Source: a virus
Virus record (IMG/VR): IMGVR_UViG_3300031857_012457
Coordinates: 1-64,000 of that record
Strand: one strand, 5' to 3'
Length of the DNA: 64,000 nt
Under the pieces are notes generated by a model. That model ran no database searches. It saw only the letters and a list, made by a program, of their open reading frames with translations, and was not told where the DNA came from. The position numbers were made by a program, and so were the translations under genes. Below are positions 1,144 to 60,460 of this stretch, piece after piece (position 1 is the first letter of the stretch; each line of letters begins with the position of its first letter).

Positions 1144-1174
1144 CAAATGTACAAAAAAAGCTTGGAATTTCCAA
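1144..1174 (-). promoter_or_regulatory. Bacteroidota-type promoter (TTG-N20-TACATTTG)
   Basis: On the minus strand TTG (1174-1172) is followed after exactly 20 nt by TACATTTG (1151-1144), a full match to the Bacteroidota -33/-7 form. It drives the HAD gene 26 nt away. The -33 element lies inside the stem of the terminator at 1152-1177. Confidence 0.7.
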
Positions 1175-7710: not shown

Positions 7711-8907
7711 TTAATTTCCTTTAGATGGGAATCTAGTCCATCCATTACTCCAAATAGGTTTATCTAATTCAGGTATTACCACATCTATCTCCTTATTACT
7801 TTTTGAAAGTGCTAATGTTTTCAATTGTTCACTTGTCAAAATTGTAGTTGCCTTACTGATAAAGTTTAAGGTAGGATTAAATGTTCCTACTGAATTGTTT
7901 TCAAATACTGAAACTCCATCTTTTACAAATCCAGCAGTTTCATTACTTTCCAAACTTAAACCACCTTTCATCCATCCCCATACAATACTATTCTTCATTG
8001 TGAATTGAGTTGCTCTCCTAAATCTCAAACCTAAATTGTGGTTTGCTAATGCAGTAGATACATTCGGTCCAATCAAAATCATATTGTAAAGTTTTGGATG
8101 TGTATACGGTTGTGCAGGTGAACCCGTTCCATCGTTATCACATTCAACACCATTTCCGGCATCACCACTATCTACGAATTGTGGGTCTCTTTTTGCCACA
8201 CCATTTGTGATTGTTCCAGTGTATCCAAAATCAAAATCAAAATCATCATCTGCGGTTGCGAATGCGTATAGATTTCTTGCAGATACCGTTCCACCAAAGA
8301 ATTCAAATGCATCATCGTTAGCGTAGATAGTTTGGATATTCTCAACGATTGTTCCACTACCAACTCCACCTAATGTTAATGCATTGATTTCAGAGTTAGG
8401 AAGTGCTGCAATACCTGCGTATTCAATTCTTACATAACGAAGAACACCACTATTATCTCCATCATTTGTTCCACCATAAGGTCTACCAATACCACCTTCA
8501 ATAGTTGGTTCTGATGTTCTATTGGTTTTTGCTCTGCCCAATATAACGATGCCTCCCCAATCACCAGGTGCTCTTTCTCCAACTGCTTTACCTGATGTAA
8601 ATACGATTGGTTTTGTTGCAGTTCCTTCTGCTACAATTTGTGCTCCTCTTTCAATTACCAATGCACCCTTCTCACTTATATCGGATACGATTGTTGTACC
8701 AGGTTGAATAATTAGTTTTGCTCCATCGGTTACATATACATAACCTTTCAATGTCCAAACTTTATCCGCAGTTAAAGTTGTTGTTGTGTTGATGTTGCCA
8801 GTAAGTGTTGTTGAGGTTGGGATGTTGATTGGACCATCTCCTCCACCCAATTCTTTATCGCAACTCATTAATCCGAATGCTAAAATAGCTACTAATAGTT
8901 TTTTCAT
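7711..8907 (-). CDS. Beta-helix outer-membrane lipoprotein paired with TonB receptor
   Basis: A 398-residue lipoprotein (lipobox LMSC, Cys 16). The repeated pattern of short strands with Gly/Asn turns (GALVIERGAQIVAEG, KPIVFTSGKAVG, DDAFEFFGGTVSA) indicates a right-handed parallel beta helix. An acidic patch DDDFDFDFG may bind a cation. In Bacteroidota, such lipoproteins are commonly encoded next to a TonB-dependent receptor of the type found upstream. Start and stop overlap (ATGA) with that receptor here, so they form a coupled pair. They probably act together at the cell surface to capture a nutrient or to modify a receptor. The ligand is unknown. Confidence 0.75.
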   Translation of the reverse strand: MKKLLVAILAFGLMSCDKELGGGDGPINIPTSTTLTGNINTTTTLTADKVWTLKGYVYVTDGAKLIIQPGTTIVSDISEKGALVIERGAQIVAEGTATKPIVFTSGKAVGERAPGDWGGIVILGRAKTNRTSEPTIEGGIGRPYGGTNDGDNSGVLRYVRIEYAGIAALPNSEINALTLGGVGSGTIVENIQTIYANDDAFEFFGGTVSARNLYAFATADDDFDFDFGYTGTITNGVAKRDPQFVDSGDAGNGVECDNDGTGSPAQPYTHPKLYNMILIGPNVSTALANHNLGLRFRRATQFTMKNSIVWGWMKGGLSLESNETAGFVKDGVSVFENNSVGTFNPTLNFISKATTILTSEQLKTLALSKSNKEIDVVIPELDKPIWSNGWTRFPSKGN

Positions 8908-11381
8908 AATGTTAAATTTAGTGTTAATGAAACTGTTTGTTCGTTGTTTGTTTTAATTAAATCTCTGTTTTGTAACTTTTGGTAAAAGATTGATGGTTGA
9001 GCAAATACATCACCTATTGCCAATTTTAATTCTCCTTTTGGAAGTTTGTGTAAGAATGTAATATCTAATACATCTCTACTATTTTCAAAGATATCAGGAT
9101 ACCCCTGAAATCCTACTGCCGATATTCTATCTCCAACCCTATTATAGGTTATATTAAGGGTTTCATTCTTTTTGTGTATATTCACCCCACCGTTTAACAC
9201 ATAGGTTGACTGTCCTTGTAATTGTCTTTTAACACCATTCACTTCAACTTCGGAATTCATTATCGATGTATTTGCGTATATATCAAACCAACCATTTATC
9301 TTTTTTCTTGCTTCCAATTCAACACCATATAGGATAGCTGAATTTGGATTGGTGTAAGTTAGGAGGAGGTTGGATGGAACCGAACCATCTGCTACAATTT
9401 GTTCTATTGGATTGATGAAGTTCTTACCAAATAGGGAAAGTGAAACATTCTCACCTGTATTCGGATACCATTCGTATTTTAAGTCAGCATTGTATATATC
9501 AGTTTTCTCTAAATTAGAGTTACCCAATAGTTGTGCATTTCTAACAAAATCATAATACGCAAAATTAGCAACTTCTCTGAATTCTGGTCTTACTAATGTT
9601 TTACTTACCGAAAATCTATACTTTGTTTTTTCTTCGTTGTATGAAAGGTTTAAGGATGGTAATATATCCAAATACTCTCTATCTACATTTACTTTCTGTC
9701 CACTAAAATCTGCAGTTGATACATCGAATAAATTATACTCACCTCTTAATCCTGTGTTTAATTTCCATTTACCGAATTCCGTATCATACATTGTGTATAA
9801 CGAACCCAAATCAAAATCAGCAGTATATCTATCAGTATTGTTTGTTATCTCATCTAACATATCAGTTGATAGGTTACGGAATACTCTAGCATTAAATCCT
9901 CGTATCTTTTTTAGGTAACCACCACCCACTTTAATCTTACCAAACTCTTTGTTGATATTACCATTCAAAGAGTTCTCATCCATCACACTCCAAAAACGAT
10001 ATGTATCTCTCCACGCAGTTTGATATGGTTCATCTACCCCCAATGATTTTGTAATTGGATTAACTCTATAATCGGGTTGTTCTCTGAAAGTGTATGTATA
10101 TCCTACATTGAAATCTAATGTTTTAACTTTACCATCTAATTGAGAACTGATTACAACATTGTTAATATGATTTGATGCAGTAGATAAAACATTCTGCACA
10201 TTATCAAAGTTATCACCAGTACGAGTTAGGTATGTATCATCGGTTTGGTAGTTCACTAATGTTTTCCAACTATATCTATTCTCACCCAAATAGGTCAAAT
10301 TGAATAAACCATTTGTGGAAAACCTTTTTGTGAATAGAACATCTTTGTAATCATAAGCCAGTTCGGTTGATGATTGATAATCCTTTCTATCAATGTTATT
10401 TATTGTAAATGAGTTCCTTACGGTAGAACTGAATAAGGAGTTCCATTTTCCGTTTACATACCCGAATGATACACCACCATTTAAGTTCTGAATAGATTGG
10501 ATTGTTTCAGTTGATGGATTATCAAATAGTTTAGTGTAAGCTCTCTTATCACCATTACCACTAATTCGGTATTTGTATGTAGATGGGAATGTGGAGGGGA
10601 AATCGGTAGCTTGAACTAACTTAAAATCTCTAAAAGTTGAAACCGAACCCCAACCACTTCCCGATGATATATTAAAAAAGTTATCAGATACTTCTTTAGT
10701 TGTTATCTGAACCAATCCACCTGCCCAATCACCTGGTAGATTTGCCGATGCTGATTTAGCAACTATTATGTTATCAATTAGTGATGTGGGGATTATATCA
10801 AATGAGAATGCTCTCCTATCGGGTTCGGTTGATGGTAGTGGGGTTTTGTTTAGTAGTGCTGAATTATATCTATCTGCCAATCCTCTTACTAATACAAACT
10901 TATCGTTTTGTATAGTTACACCACTTACTCTTTTAAGTGCATCACCCACATTTCTATCGGGTGTCTTTTTGATAAATTCTATGGATAATCCATCTGATAC
11001 AACATTACTATTTCGTATTGATTTAACAATAGTTATATCATTTACTTTTTGGGATATTGCCTGTACTGTAACCTCTGTTAATTCTGTACTACTTTCTTCA
11101 AGTATTATATCAAAGGTTATGTCAGATGTTATATTTAATTCTTTTGTAAAATTCTGATACCCTATGTATGTTGCGGTTATGATGTATGTACCAGATTTTA
11201 CATTTAATTTATACTCTGCATTTTCATTTGAGATAGTAGTGTATGTAGTTCCATCGGTGTGTTTGAAACTGATGTGGGAAAAATATATACTTTCCGTTTT
11301 GGATTTGGTTATACCACCTATGTTTATTTGTCCAATTGCTAAAGTTGGAATTAGTAGCAAAAATAAGAGAAACGATTTCAT
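8904..11381 (-). CDS. TonB-dependent outer-membrane receptor
   Basis: An 825-residue receptor. Signal peptide 1-17, a CarboxypepD-regulatory-like beta sandwich (about 20-100, SGTYIITATYIGYQ), a TonB-box-like segment (STELTEVTVQA), the plug domain (DALKRVSGVTI, VRGLADRYNSALLN, ASANLPGDWAGGLVQI) and a 22-strand barrel to the C-terminus. Length and layout are normal for the family, so it is probably functional. It would use host TonB/ExbBD energy. Such a receptor is common in Bacteroidota chromosomes but, to my knowledge, exceptional in a T4-like phage. Possible roles: nutrient uptake during infection, replacing or masking a host receptor, or making a virion receptor decoy. Confidence 0.9.
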   Translation of the reverse strand: MKSFLLFLLLIPTLAIGQINIGGITKSKTESIYFSHISFKHTDGTTYTTISNENAEYKLNVKSGTYIITATYIGYQNFTKELNITSDITFDIILEESSTELTEVTVQAISQKVNDITIVKSIRNSNVVSDGLSIEFIKKTPDRNVGDALKRVSGVTIQNDKFVLVRGLADRYNSALLNKTPLPSTEPDRRAFSFDIIPTSLIDNIIVAKSASANLPGDWAGGLVQITTKEVSDNFFNISSGSGWGSVSTFRDFKLVQATDFPSTFPSTYKYRISGNGDKRAYTKLFDNPSTETIQSIQNLNGGVSFGYVNGKWNSLFSSTVRNSFTINNIDRKDYQSSTELAYDYKDVLFTKRFSTNGLFNLTYLGENRYSWKTLVNYQTDDTYLTRTGDNFDNVQNVLSTASNHINNVVISSQLDGKVKTLDFNVGYTYTFREQPDYRVNPITKSLGVDEPYQTAWRDTYRFWSVMDENSLNGNINKEFGKIKVGGGYLKKIRGFNARVFRNLSTDMLDEITNNTDRYTADFDLGSLYTMYDTEFGKWKLNTGLRGEYNLFDVSTADFSGQKVNVDREYLDILPSLNLSYNEEKTKYRFSVSKTLVRPEFREVANFAYYDFVRNAQLLGNSNLEKTDIYNADLKYEWYPNTGENVSLSLFGKNFINPIEQIVADGSVPSNLLLTYTNPNSAILYGVELEARKKINGWFDIYANTSIMNSEVEVNGVKRQLQGQSTYVLNGGVNIHKKNETLNITYNRVGDRISAVGFQGYPDIFENSRDVLDITFLHKLPKGELKLAIGDVFAQPSIFYQKLQNRDLIKTNNEQTVSLTLNLTL

Positions 11382-51290: not shown

Positions 51291-52862
51291 TTAAGGTTTG
51301 TAGAAAATAAAGATTGGTTCATATTTGTAGGATGTACCACCTATTTTCATACTATTTTTCACTCCACTCAAATCAACTCCAGTCATTGGAGACATTGTCA
51401 TTCTCAACTTACCTTTATACTCCATTCCTAATTCAACCAATATATCAATTGAATCTTGTTCTAAAGTAAACCACTTATCAGAACCAACTTTAATATCGGC
51501 AATGTTCCAACAGATGTATCTATCGTTTCGTAAATACTCATACGCGGTTGTTAAAGTAGGTAGTAGGAATCCATCTCTCCAACTATCGTAGTTATTGAAC
51601 TTCTTAAATGATTGAGATTCATCATCTGAATATCTCTCTCTATCAAAGTAAGGTGGTGATGTAAATACAAAATCTAATTTACCTTTGTATTTCTCAAATC
51701 TGGCATCTAAATGAATTATTTCAGAACCCGTTGTAAATATTTCATACGTTGATTTATGCCCCCAAAATGGATTTGCAGCTCCAGGTACTTTACTATTAAA
51801 GAATTCACCTAAATACTCATACCTAGTCTTTTGAATTTCAGGAATAAAATTTTCAGTATTTGGGTCATTACCAATATAATGAATATTTCTATCATCCACA
51901 CTCAATGCACCTAATATCCTACCACCCCAACCTGCGGATGGGTCATACACATTGATTACATCTTGCGTTTTAATGTGTTCTGTAAATCTTTGATACAGAT
52001 ACTTCGCAGTTAGTGGTGGAAAATTTACTGCTGCCTGTGTTCCCATACCAATACGGAATGCTGCAGTTGCTTCTGGAAAGATAGTTTGACCAAACGGATA
52101 TGTTTTAATCTGTATAGGTTGTTTTGGAATATCAACTAAATTGTCAATATTATCTCCCCAATCCGCAGTTTTAAGTGATGAGATATTCTCATACTTTAAT
52201 ATACCTGCTTTGTATAAATCCTTTACTTCCTGTGCAGTAATTGGTGGAGATGGAACTTTACTATCTGCCTGTGATAAACAAAATCCATGTCCTTCTTGAA
52301 CTTCACCCGCTGCCCATCTTTCAATCCATTCCTTACCACTCTGAATATGTGAGTTATGAAAATCTTTGTGATTTAAGTGTAGGGTTTTAGAAAAACGATA
52401 CATACCATCTTGCCTAGTCAATCTTCGCATTTGCTTAATAAACTCTGGCAAATATGCATCATCTACAAATATATCATAAATGGATGGTTTTGGTTTATCG
52501 TATGAAGAACCACCAATACCAGTCTTATACATTGCAGGAAAAAATTGATTTACAGGAGTAGCGAATTTATTGAAGTTAAAAATTACTTCATTACCATCAT
52601 CATCTCTTTCTTCAAACTTATCTACCTTATAGGTTTGTAGTTTAGAAAAGTTTTCTATGATTTCCGCTTCATCTATACCAATTCTTGGAGGTGCGTTTGT
52701 AGCTGCCCATCTTTCAACGGCAGTTTTACGAAAGAATGCCACCCACTCTCCAAATTTAGTGAATGGCATTTTCAATACATCTTCGTATTTAAGATTTATT
52801 TCAGGCGAATAAATCCAATCGTTTCTTTCGTAAAAATACTTCTTTGTATAGTTGAAGCTCAT
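51291..52862 (-). CDS. DNA methyltransferase, SPPY type
   Basis: A 523-residue protein. The C-terminal 260 residues are a methyltransferase: VYDPSAGWGGRILGA (SAM motif I), YIGNDPNTE, DFVFTSPPYFDRERYSDDESQSF (catalytic SPPY), YICWNIADIK. Such SPPY enzymes modify the amino group of adenine or cytosine. The N-terminal half is specific to this phage group and may read DNA. A clear relative lies at 53642-54871 on the other side of the clamp gene. Confidence 0.85.
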   Translation of the reverse strand: MSFNYTKKYFYERNDWIYSPEINLKYEDVLKMPFTKFGEWVAFFRKTAVERWAATNAPPRIGIDEAEIIENFSKLQTYKVDKFEERDDDGNEVIFNFNKFATPVNQFFPAMYKTGIGGSSYDKPKPSIYDIFVDDAYLPEFIKQMRRLTRQDGMYRFSKTLHLNHKDFHNSHIQSGKEWIERWAAGEVQEGHGFCLSQADSKVPSPPITAQEVKDLYKAGILKYENISSLKTADWGDNIDNLVDIPKQPIQIKTYPFGQTIFPEATAAFRIGMGTQAAVNFPPLTAKYLYQRFTEHIKTQDVINVYDPSAGWGGRILGALSVDDRNIHYIGNDPNTENFIPEIQKTRYEYLGEFFNSKVPGAANPFWGHKSTYEIFTTGSEIIHLDARFEKYKGKLDFVFTSPPYFDRERYSDDESQSFKKFNNYDSWRDGFLLPTLTTAYEYLRNDRYICWNIADIKVGSDKWFTLEQDSIDILVELGMEYKGKLRMTMSPMTGVDLSGVKNSMKIGGTSYKYEPIFIFYKP

Positions 52863-53641: not shown

Positions 53642-54871
53642 TTATGGTTTTTTCCATATCCATACTGGCTCACAAAATGTTTTGTTTTTTGCTTCTTCCG
53701 CTTTTAATAAAGCTTCTTCTGTATATCTTTCCTCATCCCCTTCTATAATTGCTCCTGCACCTGCTGAACCTGGTCTCTTTGCCATCTCCATCCCTAAACA
53801 CCCTTCATAGATACCTCCCAATGATTTGATGTAATCGTTCATAGGGTTTGTTATTTCTTGGTATCCTTTACCATCCCCTTTGGAAGATGCATATACATCT
53901 GCAATGTTAATTGCTAAATACCCACCCTTTCTAATAGTAGGCCAAACCTTTTCGATTGTTTTATGTAAGAATAATTTATTCCATGCATCAATGTTGTTGT
54001 ATCGAACCCAACTTTGGGTATCGTCATAAGAATATCGTTCAACATTGAAATATGGGGGTGAGCTGAAAACAATGTCAAAATAATCGGTGTACTCACTATA
54101 ATCCATGTCTTCAGCTGGTGAGCAATGGAATGTGGCTTTTTTATCCGTTTCGAAGAATCCGTTATTCTTTCTATAAAATTCTGCCTGTTGTTCATAAATT
54201 GGGTGATTTTCTTTTCTCGGGTCAATACCCACATAATGTTCTCCTTTTTCAGATGCCATAAATCCACACAATCTATCTCCCCATCCCGCCGATATGTCTA
54301 ACACATTTTTTGCACCTACCATATCGTAAAGTGCTTTGGCAACATTGGGTTTGAATTGTGAGCAAATGTACTTTCTTAAACTCAAACAAACTCGCAGTTC
54401 GTTTCTTCCTACTTCATCAAATTTAAGAGTGTATAACCCACCCATTAAAGACGTCATAAAATCCTTACTTGCCCACGTTCTATGAGGACCTGGCGAAACG
54501 GTGCCGTCTACACTCCAACGATTTGCTTGTTGAAAGAAATTGGATGCAGAGTTACCAGTGTTTAACCTTTTTACAAATTGCTTCTTACCTCTGAATGTTA
54601 AAGGATAATTACTTTCCGATGCTTTACGAGGAAACCACTCACCCTCTTTAAGTAGTTCGTTGTAACGAGTTCCTTTGAGAGCAAGGTATTCCTTTCTAGC
54701 TTCGGTTTCTGTGATTTCGGCATACGGTAATTCGTATTCCATACACAATTGCGCAAGAGAGTCTTTTACATCATCTCTGTCAAAAGTGCTTTTAATATAA
54801 CTCCACTCTTCACTATTGATGTGAAGGTATGGAGCCATATTTTTGAACTTGTTAAAGTATTCTATATACAT
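53642..54871 (-). CDS. DNA methyltransferase, SPPY type (paralog)
   Basis: A 409-residue protein. VLDISAGWGDRLCGFMA (SAM motif), YVGIDPRKENH, DIVFSSPPYFNVERYSYDDTQSW and YLAINIADVYASS match the protein at 51291-52862 motif by motif. The N-terminal parts differ. The pair could recognise two sites or act as a heterodimer. No restriction enzyme is visible next to them, so protection from host restriction or control of phage transcription is likely. Confidence 0.8.
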   Translation of the reverse strand: MYIEYFNKFKNMAPYLHINSEEWSYIKSTFDRDDVKDSLAQLCMEYELPYAEITETEARKEYLALKGTRYNELLKEGEWFPRKASESNYPLTFRGKKQFVKRLNTGNSASNFFQQANRWSVDGTVSPGPHRTWASKDFMTSLMGGLYTLKFDEVGRNELRVCLSLRKYICSQFKPNVAKALYDMVGAKNVLDISAGWGDRLCGFMASEKGEHYVGIDPRKENHPIYEQQAEFYRKNNGFFETDKKATFHCSPAEDMDYSEYTDYFDIVFSSPPYFNVERYSYDDTQSWVRYNNIDAWNKLFLHKTIEKVWPTIRKGGYLAINIADVYASSKGDGKGYQEITNPMNDYIKSLGGIYEGCLGMEMAKRPGSAGAGAIIEGDEERYTEEALLKAEEAKNKTFCEPVWIWKKP

Positions 54872-54881
54872 AACTTAATAA

Positions 54882-57152
54882 TTAATTATTCTGTAATTCC
54901 GTAACATAAGAATCTAAAACAACATTTCCACTTTTAAAAGAATAACTGCTATTATATTCAATTTCAAAATAAGAAAGTACAATTTTTAAATTTTCTCGTG
55001 CTTTCTTTGCGTTGTTGTAATCTTCTTCTTTTGCTTCATTATCGCTATCTTCAATGAATTCAATCTTTCTTTTATTTAGAGTATCATTGCAATTTGCAAT
55101 CATTTCTTTCCAAAATAAGTCAAATGATTTTTGATTTAGTTTAAATTTATGTCTATTATCTTTATTAAACTCAAATATCCACATTTTATCACGAAGAACT
55201 CCACCATCCGAATCAGCTTCTAAATGCCCAACATCAAATTCTTCAACTTTACGAAGTATTCCATCACGCGTATTAAAGATTTTAAAATTTGATAAATCGT
55301 TATTTTTTATTTCTTTTTTAAGAAAATTTAAAAATTTCAATCTTTCTTTTGAAGTAGTTGATGCATCTATATATTCTAAATCTAAAACTGGTTTTACAAC
55401 ATCAATGAAAAATGTATCTATAACTGCATATATTTTTTCGATATTACCACCTTTAAAATGATATAATGGACCAAATGTAGGCGTATCATTTCTATCATCT
55501 AAATCCGATGCTCTACATACATCTTTCCAATCATCAATATTATACTCAAATTTAAAAAATGATTTAGGTCCTTCATATAAATCAATTTCAAAATTCCAAA
55601 CAAAATCTAACCACTTTTGAGTTGTAATTTCAATAACTCTATTAAGCACATCTGTAATATGTGTTTCGGATAGATTTTTGTTTTGTAATACAAAATCAAT
55701 AGTATTTAATAATATTGGATAAAGTAATTCTTTTTGTTGTAATCTCAACTTATTAACAGTACCTAAATTACCAGGTTTATCTATACCAATATTTTTAAGA
55801 TATTCTCTAATTATTTCGGTTTCCTTTTGTAAATGAGTATTCCATAGTTGAATTATTTTCTCGTTATTTAACCCAACATTTTTTTGTGAATTTTGAATTC
55901 TATTATATCCTAATGTAGCTTCAACCATATTAAAAACTTTTAGAAATTCGGATTCTAATTGCTTTACATTTCGTTTGTTTCTTTCGGAATATTCAATATA
56001 TTCGGCAACAGTCTCTTGAACTATTTTAGTTCCTTTATCAAACGGCCTAGCTAAACCATTATAAAACCAATTTTGATAACGCTTTAAACCATAATCACTT
56101 TTAATATCCGCACCATTAATTTGAATTAAACATGATGTAAGAAAATGATAAATGTATCTATCATATTCATTATATTCAGAACCATGAATATTATCATTAA
56201 TTACTCTAAAAAATGGATTGTTTTTATCAGATTTTGCAAAACATGCGGATAAAATGGCTGGTTTATGTACATCTCTTGGATTTTTACTATTATCATATAC
56301 TACATTATCATGCCAAGCATCTTTTACCATAGTCATTGATAAATTCACATCCGATTGTCCGGCACCTCGTTTACCTTCTCTATGATACGATTCACTTTCA
56401 CATCCATTACTTTTTCTTTCTAATATTACATTTGGTTTTAAATCAAGAATTGAATTAATTAATTTAAAATATCCATTCTCTTTTAACCAACTAACAGTTA
56501 AAAATTGATTTTTTGTAATTACAAAATCATCTTTAAAAGCACCTAATGCTAATTTTAAAAGATTTAATAAATCTGAATTTTTACCGTTTTCCCATCTATT
56601 AGAATTTTTAATATATCTGTTTTCAACTTCATTAAATTCTCCTTTTTCATCAAGAACTTTCCATACTTTTGAATCGGTAAAATAACTAAACCATCTCCAT
56701 ACTAATTGAAATTTACTTTCACCATCCCATATACCAACTAATTTAAATTCTCCATAAGTATCTGTATTTATTTTTAAAGTTGGAATTGAACTGTGTGTAA
56801 TCCAAGATATAAAACCATCACTAATACTATCGTAATCCCAAGTAGATGTTCCACAATCTTCGTTCTTATTAAGAGTTCTTATTACCGAAGATTTACCCCT
56901 TTGTCCTTTTGATGGTAAAAATATTGTTGTAGACATTACAGGTTTTACATTATACTGCACATCTCTAAAAGATATAGGTTCATAATGAAACAGTAAATCT
57001 CGATAGGTTAGTTCTTTCAATGTTCCCCACGTACTTGATGAGTTATTGAAGTTTTCTATTACATTTCTGATTTGTTCTTCTTTGGTGAGAACGATACCTG
57101 ATAGATTAGCTCTGTCTAACAAAGCCTTATCAATTTTTTTTGAGTATCTCAT
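54882..57152 (-). CDS. Large protein of unknown function with HNH-like C-terminus
   Basis: A 756-residue protein, basic overall, without signal peptide or membrane segment. I do not recognise the first 580 residues; they contain FLPSKGQRGKSSVIRTL and SYHREGKRGAGQSDVNLSM. Near residue 655 the stretch EFDVGHLEADSDGGVL, then FEFNKDNRHKF, follows the HNH order (H..x(n)..GG....N...N..K), which would be a metal nuclease. Its codon use looks more AT-rich than the polymerase. It is alone behind the best promoter of the window. Candidates: host-directed nuclease, homing-like element or anti-phage function. Confidence 0.6.
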   Translation of the reverse strand: MRYSKKIDKALLDRANLSGIVLTKEEQIRNVIENFNNSSSTWGTLKELTYRDLLFHYEPISFRDVQYNVKPVMSTTIFLPSKGQRGKSSVIRTLNKNEDCGTSTWDYDSISDGFISWITHSSIPTLKINTDTYGEFKLVGIWDGESKFQLVWRWFSYFTDSKVWKVLDEKGEFNEVENRYIKNSNRWENGKNSDLLNLLKLALGAFKDDFVITKNQFLTVSWLKENGYFKLINSILDLKPNVILERKSNGCESESYHREGKRGAGQSDVNLSMTMVKDAWHDNVVYDNSKNPRDVHKPAILSACFAKSDKNNPFFRVINDNIHGSEYNEYDRYIYHFLTSCLIQINGADIKSDYGLKRYQNWFYNGLARPFDKGTKIVQETVAEYIEYSERNKRNVKQLESEFLKVFNMVEATLGYNRIQNSQKNVGLNNEKIIQLWNTHLQKETEIIREYLKNIGIDKPGNLGTVNKLRLQQKELLYPILLNTIDFVLQNKNLSETHITDVLNRVIEITTQKWLDFVWNFEIDLYEGPKSFFKFEYNIDDWKDVCRASDLDDRNDTPTFGPLYHFKGGNIEKIYAVIDTFFIDVVKPVLDLEYIDASTTSKERLKFLNFLKKEIKNNDLSNFKIFNTRDGILRKVEEFDVGHLEADSDGGVLRDKMWIFEFNKDNRHKFKLNQKSFDLFWKEMIANCNDTLNKRKIEFIEDSDNEAKEEDYNNAKKARENLKIVLSYFEIEYNSSYSFKSGNVVLDSYVTELQNN

Positions 57153-57194
57153 AATTCTATGAAGTTTAAAAGGTAATTCAACCCGTTATTAATA

Positions 57195-57225
57195 CAAATA
57201 TAAGAAAAGTATTTCGAAATATCAA
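57195..57225 (-). promoter_or_regulatory. Promoter TTG-N20-TATATTTG (perfect match)
   Basis: Minus strand CTTGATA, 20-nt spacer, TATATTTG, 42 nt before the ATG of the 756-residue gene. It matches the Bacteroidota consensus at every defined position. Confidence 0.75.
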
Positions 57226-57244: not shown

Positions 57245-58084
57245 TTAAGAAAAAATCCATCTTCCTCCAATGTTCCAAAATAGTATATCTCCATCTAATT
57301 TTTCAATGTTATCCGATAACCATTTCCACTGTTTAATATCCCAAAATTGATTGCAAGGAAATGGTGCTTCAAAATTATCTAACCTATCGTTAAATCCATA
57401 CTCTGATTTTTCAATATGAACATTGGTTGGGTCATATACATTGTGTTGTACATACGTTCCTTTGACCGTTCTGTAAGATGAAACACAAGTACTCCAAGCG
57501 TGTCTATCTGGTTTTTCCCAAAAGTTATTCCTTTGCCCTACGAATTTTTTAATCAATCCAGATGATGTTACTCCCTCACCCGATGAAACTACTAAATGTT
57601 TAAAATCACCCTTTTCTTCCAAAACCCTTTCCATCTTTTTTTCCATGTAATCAACATAGAAACCATCGTTGAATGCATAAGGTAATAACTGCCATTTTCC
57701 TACCGATGAATTTTTTAATTGAGCATACATTATATCCTGTATGTTGTTTTGAATAGGATTGAATATCGTTTTGGGGTGTAGTGTTTTAACCTTTTCTATT
57801 AGGGCCTGGCTGATTACTTTATTGTCAGGATACGAATATATGAAGTCTATCCCTAACTCCTCACATATCGCAGCTAATGCCCAACCAGACCAACTTCCGT
57901 TTACTACCAAGTGGGTTAAAGGTTTTGACCTATCAACATACTTATCTACTAAATTATAGATTGCTTCAATTTTTCCCCAAGGTGGTAGTGATTCACCATC
58001 ACCCATCAAATCATCTCGCTTAACCCAAACCTTTCTACCTTTCAATTCATACACCTCTAATGGTGTATTTGTATTTAAAACCAT
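57245..58084 (-). CDS. PLP-dependent enzyme, ACC deaminase/D-cysteine desulfhydrase-like
   Basis: A 279-residue fold-type II PLP enzyme. TPLEVYELKGRKVWVKRDDLMG is the family start; WGKIEAI holds the likely PLP lysine; LVVSSGEGVTSSGLI is the phosphate loop (GxGGTxxG-like). The usual SNH substrate motif (GGxQSNHxR) reads NGSWSGWALA, so the substrate should differ from ACC or D-cysteine. It overlaps the dehydrogenase gene by 10 nt and is the last gene of a three-gene cassette. Confidence 0.7.
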   Translation of the reverse strand: MVLNTNTPLEVYELKGRKVWVKRDDLMGDGESLPPWGKIEAIYNLVDKYVDRSKPLTHLVVNGSWSGWALAAICEELGIDFIYSYPDNKVISQALIEKVKTLHPKTIFNPIQNNIQDIMYAQLKNSSVGKWQLLPYAFNDGFYVDYMEKKMERVLEEKGDFKHLVVSSGEGVTSSGLIKKFVGQRNNFWEKPDRHAWSTCVSSYRTVKGTYVQHNVYDPTNVHIEKSEYGFNDRLDNFEAPFPCNQFWDIKQWKWLSDNIEKLDGDILFWNIGGRWIFS

Positions 58085-58917
58085 ACTCTTTCGTGTCTTT
58101 TTAGATGGGCATCTTCTATAGTGTTTTCTTTACATTTATCAATTAGTTTTTTCAAATCATCTGCAAAGTTACTATTAACATACCCACCAATCTTACCTTT
58201 AATAATTGGTTGATTGTAACTCCAAGATACGTGTTCATAATATCTGATGTTTGGAAATTCTGTTATTTGAGGTCTATGGTCGGATGTTAGCATATCAAAG
58301 TGTCCTTGCTTTAACTTACCACTTGCTATGAAATTAACTAACGCAGGATTACTGATTACTTCTCCTCTACTAATAGAAATTATATCAACTTCTTTTCGTA
58401 TTTTTGAAAACAATACATCATCAAAATATCCCTTTGTACTATCATTTAAAGGTAGTGTAATTACAATAGTTTTAGCAAATGCTAAATATCTATCCACTTC
58501 TTCTTGTGCAGTTTTGGTATTAACAACATTGAAATTTCCAATGTGTTTTTGTAACTCTTTACTGATACTACCGTTACCAAATATCAATACCGCATCATCT
58601 TCTTTAATCTTATCTTTAATCCAATTTGCACAAGGTACTGCAGTTGGTGATAATGCAACAACTCCGATGTTCTTATCTTTACAATCTTTTAAGTTTACCA
58701 TATCCACACCATGTGAACGACAAACTATCCATTCTAAATTTGGATACTTATTTAAAGTTTGTTTGCCAATCTTTGAAAACTTAACAGAAAGAACCTTAAC
58801 TTCTGGATATGTATCTTTTGGTCTTTCGTATGCACCCAATACTTGTACATTCGGTAATCTTTCTAAAACGGATTCTACAATATCAGCTTTATCTTTTAAT
58901 AATACATCGTTATACAT
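58075..58917 (-). CDS. D-2-hydroxyacid dehydrogenase-like protein
   Basis: About 280 residues from the ATG at 58917 (MYNDVLLKDKADIVES), overlapping AsnB by 8 nt; an ATG at 58950 gives 11 more. LEWIVCRSHGVDMVNL, VLIFGNGSISKELQKHI (NAD loop), ITLPLNDSTKGYFDD, ISISRGEVISNPALV (active-site Arg) and YYEHVSWSYN (active-site His) follow the family order. The acidic partner of the His is not clear. It probably reduces a 2-keto or oxidises a 2-hydroxy acid made or used by its two neighbours. Confidence 0.7.
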   Translation of the reverse strand: MYNDVLLKDKADIVESVLERLPNVQVLGAYERPKDTYPEVKVLSVKFSKIGKQTLNKYPNLEWIVCRSHGVDMVNLKDCKDKNIGVVALSPTAVPCANWIKDKIKEDDAVLIFGNGSISKELQKHIGNFNVVNTKTAQEEVDRYLAFAKTIVITLPLNDSTKGYFDDVLFSKIRKEVDIISISRGEVISNPALVNFIASGKLKQGHFDMLTSDHRPQITEFPNIRYYEHVSWSYNQPIIKGKIGGYVNSNFADDLKKLIDKCKENTIEDAHLKRHERVWF

Positions 58918-60460
58918 TTGTAAACTTTTTAAGGGTTGATTTATTGTCATATTTTATAAATGATTCATCAAAGTATTCTTTGATTTTATCTTTTTCTTGC
59001 TTTAAAAAATCGGTATGACATCCAACTTGAAATGTTTTTTTAGGTCTCCATAGAATTTCATCCGATATTTCACCCTCAAATGATTTCCGTAAAAGATATT
59101 TCATAATTTTTCCCCTACCATTTGCTTCATCTCTATATCGTGTTGGTGTTTGTAATCCAAATTCAACTAAAGTTTTATCTAAAAACGGTGTTCTTAATTC
59201 AACAGTACCACCATACATCATTGCTTTGTTTGTTCTAATCAAATTACTTCTATGTAACTCTCTTAACAATTGAACTCGTTTTGAATGATACAATTTTGGG
59301 TCTTGCCAACTCCATCGAAATACATCTCCGTAACTTGCAAATATCTCATCACTACCTTCACCACCAAACACAACTTTAAAACCACGATTGTCAATTTCTT
59401 TTGCCAAAAACAATTGTGCTACTGCTGGAGATATTTGAGTCCACTTCCAATCTTCGGATGCGTAAATTGATTCTTTTAATTTATCAACTATTTCTTCTTT
59501 GGTAACATTTACTTCTATTAACTCAATACCAATTTCTTTACTGAATTCTCTTGCGTAATACAAGTCATCTTTTAAGTTTGCTTTTCTTGTGCCAGATGTT
59601 ACATTTACAACAAATGCTTTTAGATTTTTAACACGCTTACTCAACAGATATGTAATAATTACTGAATCTATTCCACCACTTAAAATTGTACAAATAGGAA
59701 CATCTGCTATTAACTCATTATCAACTGCTTTGTTTAATAACAAATTCAATTTAGATGTATAGTGTTCTAATCCTAAATCATTTGAATCAGTATCTTTTTT
59801 TAAGAAGTCATTGAAATTAAAATAAGTGTGGGTATGTGTATCACCTGTTTCCAAATAGTAAATCATACAAGTACCAGGTGTTACCGTTCGTATAATTTCT
59901 TCTTTTCTATCCTTTGAATTTTTATTTGCGTGATGATAATTTACTTTAAACGAATCCGTTAATGCTTTTATCTCACTAGCAAATGCTATTTTTCTATCAG
60001 CATCTTCCAAATAATAAAAAGGAAGTCTACCAATAAAATCTCTTCCTAAAAATAAAAAATTAGATTTTCTATCGTATATACAAAAACTGAACATACCATC
60101 CAATCGTTTCATAAAATCAATTGGTTCATGTCCAAATTTTTTGTACATCAATGCCAACAATTCGGTATCTGAACTTTCTGTTTTTGTTTTGTATTCATTT
60201 CTTAAATACGAATACTCATCTATTGTATTTTTCCAAAGTTCTCCATTGAATACAACAACAACCTCCCCATCCACATCTTCAAATGGTTGGTTTGCTATTT
60301 CAGAAAGGTCTTGGATTGACAAACGATTATGAGCCATAAACAATCCGTTTAATGGTTCAATGACGGTAGAGTTATCCCGTCCTCTATGTATTATTTTTTT
60401 AAGAGATAACTCTACCTGTTCTTTACTATTAAATGCGTTTCCGCCGATTATTCCACACAT
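58910..60460 (-). CDS. asnB: Asparagine synthetase (glutamine-hydrolysing), AsnB-like
   Basis: A 516-residue protein. MCGIIGG gives the N-terminal Cys nucleophile of the glutaminase domain (IHRGRDNSTV, LFMAHNRLSIQDLS, FNGELWK follow). The synthetase domain has the ATP loop ILSGGIDSVIITYL at about 260 and FGGEGSDEIFASY. Similar enzymes amidate many carboxylates, not only aspartate. In phages it may amidate a sugar, an amino acid or a modified base precursor. First gene of the cassette. Confidence 0.85.
   Translation of the reverse strand: MCGIIGGNAFNSKEQVELSLKKIIHRGRDNSTVIEPLNGLFMAHNRLSIQDLSEIANQPFEDVDGEVVVVFNGELWKNTIDEYSYLRNEYKTKTESSDTELLALMYKKFGHEPIDFMKRLDGMFSFCIYDRKSNFLFLGRDFIGRLPFYYLEDADRKIAFASEIKALTDSFKVNYHHANKNSKDRKEEIIRTVTPGTCMIYYLETGDTHTHTYFNFNDFLKKDTDSNDLGLEHYTSKLNLLLNKAVDNELIADVPICTILSGGIDSVIITYLLSKRVKNLKAFVVNVTSGTRKANLKDDLYYAREFSKEIGIELIEVNVTKEEIVDKLKESIYASEDWKWTQISPAVAQLFLAKEIDNRGFKVVFGGEGSDEIFASYGDVFRWSWQDPKLYHSKRVQLLRELHRSNLIRTNKAMMYGGTVELRTPFLDKTLVEFGLQTPTRYRDEANGRGKIMKYLLRKSFEGEISDEILWRPKKTFQVGCHTDFLKQEKDKIKEYFDESFIKYDNKSTLKKFTNV

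Follow-up and report, generated by a model that had tools for sequence, protein, structure and literature searches.

The window, a stretch of 64,000 nucleotides, makes up positions 1 to 64,000 of an IMG/VR virus record of 201,940 bp. A polymerase encoded near the gene studied here shares 49% identity with its counterpart in Microcystis phage Mel-JY01 and about 32% with those of T4-like cyanophages, and the record was on this basis taken to be a T4-like phage. The gene, ORF756, lies on the minus strand with the following features in and around it:

54882..57152 (-), ORF756, 756 amino acids, ATG start, intact frame
57245..58084 (-), PALP (PLP-dependent enzyme-like), the upstream border of the slot discussed below
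53642..54871 (-), MT2 (N4/N6 DNA methylase-like), the downstream flank, kept in relatives with or without ORF756
57195..57225 (-), promoter-like element TTGATATTTCGAAATACTTTTCTTATATTTG (TTG-N20-TAnnTTTG) with an internal 12-bp palindrome, TATTTCGAAATA
56886..56921 (-), conserved FLPSKGQRGKSS block, residues 78 to 89, like the GmrSD_N QR motif by eye only
56706..56729 (-), conserved WDGESKFQ block, residues 142 to 149, like the GmrSD_N DGQQR motif by eye only
55146..55235 (-), HNH-like motif DVGHLEADSDGGVLRDKMWIFEFNKDNRHK, residues 640 to 669, conserved across three homologs

Upstream of ORF756 are genes for ribonucleotide reductase, thioredoxin, asparagine synthase, 2-hydroxyacid dehydrogenase, and PALP; downstream are MT2, a PCNA-like clamp, a second methylase-like gene, and a family B polymerase. 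The original prediction had placed the gene at the replication genes, and this agrees with the polymerase, methylase-like, and clamp genes on one side and the run from the PLP enzyme to ribonucleotide reductase on the other. It had also described the gene as standing alone. However, the gap from PALP to the ORF756 start is 92 bp and MT2 begins 10 bp past the ORF756 stop in the same direction, so that ORF756 opens a run of genes in one direction and is not a solitary gene. MT2 was considered as a dedicated partner methylase of ORF756 and was rejected because related phages without ORF756 retain MT2 as well. Two related N4/N6 methylase-like genes (51291-52862 and 53642-54871) flank the clamp gene, and in relatives these methylase-like genes occur in additional copies and rearranged orders. 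In one relative, a gene that looks by eye like a GroEL-like chaperonin gene (L061:13474-15108) lies between the polymerase and clamp genes. On the other side of ORF756, the PALP, 2-hydroxyacid dehydrogenase, and asparagine synthase genes (57245-60460) form a cassette that is kept together in six relatives (L063, L070, L072, L073, L074, and L075), with about 48 to 64% identity. The PLP enzyme of the cassette resembles a gene of Pseudomonas phages YuA/M6 (27.6%, 3e-9), and the cassette may be part of a DNA base modification pathway. With regard to thymidine hypermodification, no thymidylate-synthase-like enzyme or 5-hmdU kinase domain or gene was found in the phage's own record.

The element upstream of ORF756 had been called a perfect promoter and the best in the region, and this description did not hold up. 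The sigma-70-like match, TTGATA-17-TATATT, is 10/12, and sigma-70-like sites are not enriched in the region (66 found versus 70.7 expected from shuffles). With a matrix built from seven promoter-like sites of related phages, the ORF756 site ranks fifth on its strand. The best site in the window by the same matrix is at 1144-1174 (-), TTGGAAATTCCAAGCTTTTTTTGTACATTTG, a strong TTG-N20-TAnnTTTG match. Similar elements, with TTG and TA 20 bases apart, precede the genes found at the same location in L057, L063, L072, L074, and L056. In L070 and L075, where the site is empty, MT2 itself is immediately preceded by a TGTATATT element. Because it fits this recurrent TTG-N20-TAnnTT pattern before the same-slot genes of several relatives, the ORF756 element is probably a real but ordinary promoter. 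The TAnnTTTG form is known from Bacteroidota promoters and may here give a hint at the host.

ORF756 is AT-rich compared with both flanks. Its GC content is 26.8% and its third-position GC content is 13.7%, while the corresponding values are 37.7 and 31.7% for MT2 and 34.9 and 29.6% for PALP. The open reading frame was confirmed, and its protein had no match in Pfam, PADLOC, the PDB, annotated phages, or plasmids, in keeping with its first description as a 756-residue protein of no recognized family. Searches of PHROGs and NCBIfam returned chance-level rows only, and no homologs were found in bacterial genomes, plasmids, or named phages. Among such rows, HrpA (NCBIfam, E=0.003) was discarded as chance level and absent from both homologs described below, Csm3 appeared for the L074 homolog only, and DUF7654 and NtdA_N were chance-level rows in whole-protein and fragment profile searches. 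In IMG/VR, 100% identical copies of ORF756 are present in two other contigs. Two distant homologs of 772 and 776 amino acids, from L063 and L074, are 21 to 23% identical to ORF756 (BLASTP E=1e-4 and 4e-10) and 60% identical to one another, which brings the family to three homologs within the collections searched. AlphaFold2 models of ORF756 had a pLDDT of 33 with one sequence and 31 with three sequences; residues 330 to 520 were modeled mostly as helices, but with a pLDDT below 60.

The C terminus had been proposed to be an HNH end, with the sequence HLEADSDGG...NKDNRHK, and this sequence is present at residues 643 to 669. In the three-way alignment, D640, G642, H643, G650, G651, I659, F660, E661, and N666 are invariant. 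The motif D-x-G-H-x6-GG-x14-N is thus kept across homologs of about 22% identity. The C-terminal part has few invariant positions, and the residues of the motif belong to them. When the 1,187 ORFs of the fetched loci were searched with an HNH-like pattern, the hits were the ORF756 family and a single additional ORF. A gapless 33-residue matrix made from the HNH regions of plasmid and phage DUF262 nucleases scored highest within ORF756 precisely at the motif, with a rank of 15 among the 1,187 ORFs; 93 of 5,000 shuffles scored as well (p about 0.02). The residues common to the motif and the plasmid DUF262-HNH proteins are E-D-H-A-S-GG-N-R-K. The best scores of the L063 and L074 homologs with this matrix were not at the motif, and the ORF756 motif lacks the middle Asn of HNH. 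Neither Pfam HNH nor GmrSD_N was detected in ORF756, searched as the whole protein and as fragments at E values up to 10, and the PF01844 search of the phage's own genome gave no match to ORF756. A custom HNH profile did not recover ORF756, and hhalign against the DUF262-HNH set was not significant. The proposal of an HNH end therefore stands in part: the motif is kept in diverged homologs and reaches weak significance against shuffles, but support from profiles or structure did not materialize. At the level of a motif, the C terminus of ORF756 is likely, though unproven, to be an HNH nuclease site.

The two most conserved blocks picked by the search tool, F[IL]PSxxQR and W[DE]G[DE]SKxQ, lie in the N-terminal part. 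In GmrSD enzymes, a DUF262 domain is followed by a helical linker of 200 to 400 amino acids and then by HNH, and QR and (I/V)DGQQR are the GmrSD_N motifs (PMC4619093). ORF756 might be a true, divergent member of the GmrSD/DUF262 group, a ParB/Srx-fold NTPase sensor joined to HNH that recognizes modified DNA. The two blocks follow each other as the QR and DGQQR motifs do, and the tenant of the same slot in L057 is a genuine GmrSD_N plus HNH protein. However, 132 of 300 shuffles were as good in the two-block motif test, and the PF03235 profile matched neither ORF756 nor anything else in its phage. The (I/V)DGQQR motif, nearly invariant in the GmrSD family, reads WDGESK or WEGDSK at the best position in ORF756 and its homologs. 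With the two-block test, hhalign, and the custom HMMs all not significant, membership in GmrSD was dropped, and we consider it unlikely.

To place ORF756 in its genomic context, 48 loci were fetched with MT2 and 30 with PALP as the anchor from related phages, and their gene order was mapped; slot counts refer to these fetched contigs, which are metagenomic and in many cases fragments, some of them possibly near-duplicates. No close copy of ORF756 was found at the locus among the relatives fetched. In L070 and L075 the slot is empty, with PALP and MT2 43 bp apart, and in about eight of the contigs PALP is directly followed by MT2 or the polymerase gene. The L063 and L074 homologs of ORF756 occupy the same slot.

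Other relatives hold different genes there. In the T4-like phage L057 and in L079, which encode an identical protein (L057:7293-8783), the tenant combines GmrSD_N (PF03235, 1.1e-10) with HNH (PF01844, 5e-7); its best PADLOC match is NsnA (1.2e-15). Plasmid relatives of this protein directly adjoin EcoRI-family adenine methylases (L094 to L096 and L098 to L100), and this supports a restriction role for the L057 tenant, not directly for ORF756. The slot in L072 (10916-12491) holds a Type II restriction endonuclease (REase_II, 5.5e-21) and a Type II D12 methylase (1.2e-57), in overlapping genes that form an apparently complete restriction-modification pair in a phage genome. A GHKL ATPase protein is found in L059, and a family of about 543 amino acids that has no assignment is found in four relatives (L056:10904-12535, L044:8354-9985, L062:10883-12523, and L066:10885-12510). 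By eye, the protein at L068:7738-9369 looks like this family, which could itself be GHKL-like. The slots of L067 and L069 hold two further proteins lacking an assignment, with C-terminal PD-(D/E)xK-like motifs by eye. In the closest relative, L006 (MT2 95% identical), a different orphan of 600 amino acids (8199-10001) is immediately upstream of MT2. That orphan has a C-terminal H...N-like segment, GGHIISDSE...CRAMSSYHN, and BLASTP aligns it with ORF756 best over the HNH-like region, though without significance (E=1.3). Directly upstream of MT2 in L009 (MT2 90% identical) are a ParB-like protein (PHROGs, 1.6e-10) and a small protein that has no assignment. Most of the other tenants, like ORF756, are AT-rich compared with their flanks. 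Taken together, the empty sites, the diverged homologs, the varied tenants, and the AT-rich composition show that the interval between PALP and MT2 is an exchange slot and that ORF756 is an accessory gene. The suggestion of a mobile gene in the original prediction was well founded, given the empty sites, the very diverged homologs in two relatives, and unrelated restriction-type genes elsewhere; presence in all relatives as a core gene had been set beforehand as a refutation, and the loci of the relatives showed the opposite, in favor of the prediction.

A clean presence or absence between the same two genes, empty in L070 and L075 and filled in the window, is also what a free-standing homing endonuclease would leave behind. 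The HNH protein of such a gene, or of another selfish mobile gene, would cut the empty slot of co-infecting relatives, and the gene would enter it through repair without serving the phage. T4-like phages commonly carry free-standing HNH homing genes, and the HNH-like motif of ORF756 would fit one. However, typical enzymes of this kind are far smaller than 756 amino acids, and the slot is common to unrelated restriction-type genes rather than to one endonuclease family. Identity among the homologs is as low as about 22%, and no spread of near-identical copies was seen in other phages. A homing gene is, in our judgment, a rather improbable identity for ORF756.

The explanation that we favor, and to which we give roughly even chances, is that ORF756 is an exchangeable nuclease of the restriction type, directed at the DNA of the host or of rivals. 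We infer this mainly from the other tenants of the slot and the C-terminal motif. ORF756 would be a cargo gene of a T4-like phage, carried in a slot between PALP and the replication and methylase block whose contents differ among relatives and include several restriction-type nucleases. As we infer its action, DNA would most likely be cut at the C terminus, by an HNH site of the beta-beta-alpha metal type near H643 and N666. The long N-terminal and middle parts would probably recognize the target and control when it is cut, broadly as in GmrSD, SspE, and similar single-chain enzymes. Likely targets would be the chromosome of the host or phages and plasmids that compete with the phage, whereas modification or target choice would protect the phage's own DNA. 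It has been proposed that ParB/HNH restriction proteins may break down the DNA of the host or rival elements (PMC5512222), and their action against rivals or host DNA is also discussed in PMC4619093. On the other hand, several tenants of the slot have no assignment, and position in the slot is by itself no proof of a nuclease. These same tenants, and an HNH motif that neither profiles nor a predicted fold back up, would suit a protein that is no nuclease at all but an anti-defense or a structural or regulatory accessory protein with a coincidental HGG...N motif; we regard this as unlikely, since the motif residues are among the few C-terminal invariants and the gapless match coincides exactly with these residues.

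A broader reading, which we offer tentatively and with less than even confidence, is that a new family of phage nucleases, large and made of a single chain, begins with ORF756 and its two homologs. The slot would then be dedicated to exchange, and in it T4-like phages would trade restriction-type enzymes that hit host or rival DNA and spare their own. Restriction-type enzymes are usually regarded as bacterial weapons against phages. If the reading is right, these phages have a cargo slot beside replication and DNA methylase genes in which they exchange such enzymes, and attack on DNA by phage against phage and by phage against host would become directly testable. The content between PALP and the methylase or polymerase gene would then offer a positional route to further unrecognized nuclease families.

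Four known systems come closest to ORF756. The free-standing HNH homing endonucleases of T4-like phages share with it an HNH-like motif and intergenic presence or absence, but ORF756 is much larger, its slot is shared with unrelated genes, and its close copies are not spread. The GmrSD Type IV enzymes (DUF262, PF03235, plus DUF1524/HNH) are, like ORF756, large single chains, and ORF756 resembles them in its conserved N-terminal QR and DG blocks and C-terminal H...N motif. It differs from them in lacking a profile match, a significant profile-profile score, and the middle Asn of HNH, and in having DGESK or EGDSK where GmrSD has DGQQR. The plasmid DUF262-HNH proteins (L094 to L096 and L098 to L100) match ORF756 without gaps over 33 residues (EMDADHVTAWSKGG...HNRAK versus EFDVGHLEADSDGG...DNRHK), and both adjoin a methylase-like gene. 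However, there is no significant similarity outside the HNH motif, and the methylase-like neighbor of ORF756, kept with or without it, is no dedicated partner. The Type II endonuclease and D12 methylase of L072 are unrelated to ORF756 but occupy the same slot after PALP, the former as a complete pair and ORF756 as one large protein.
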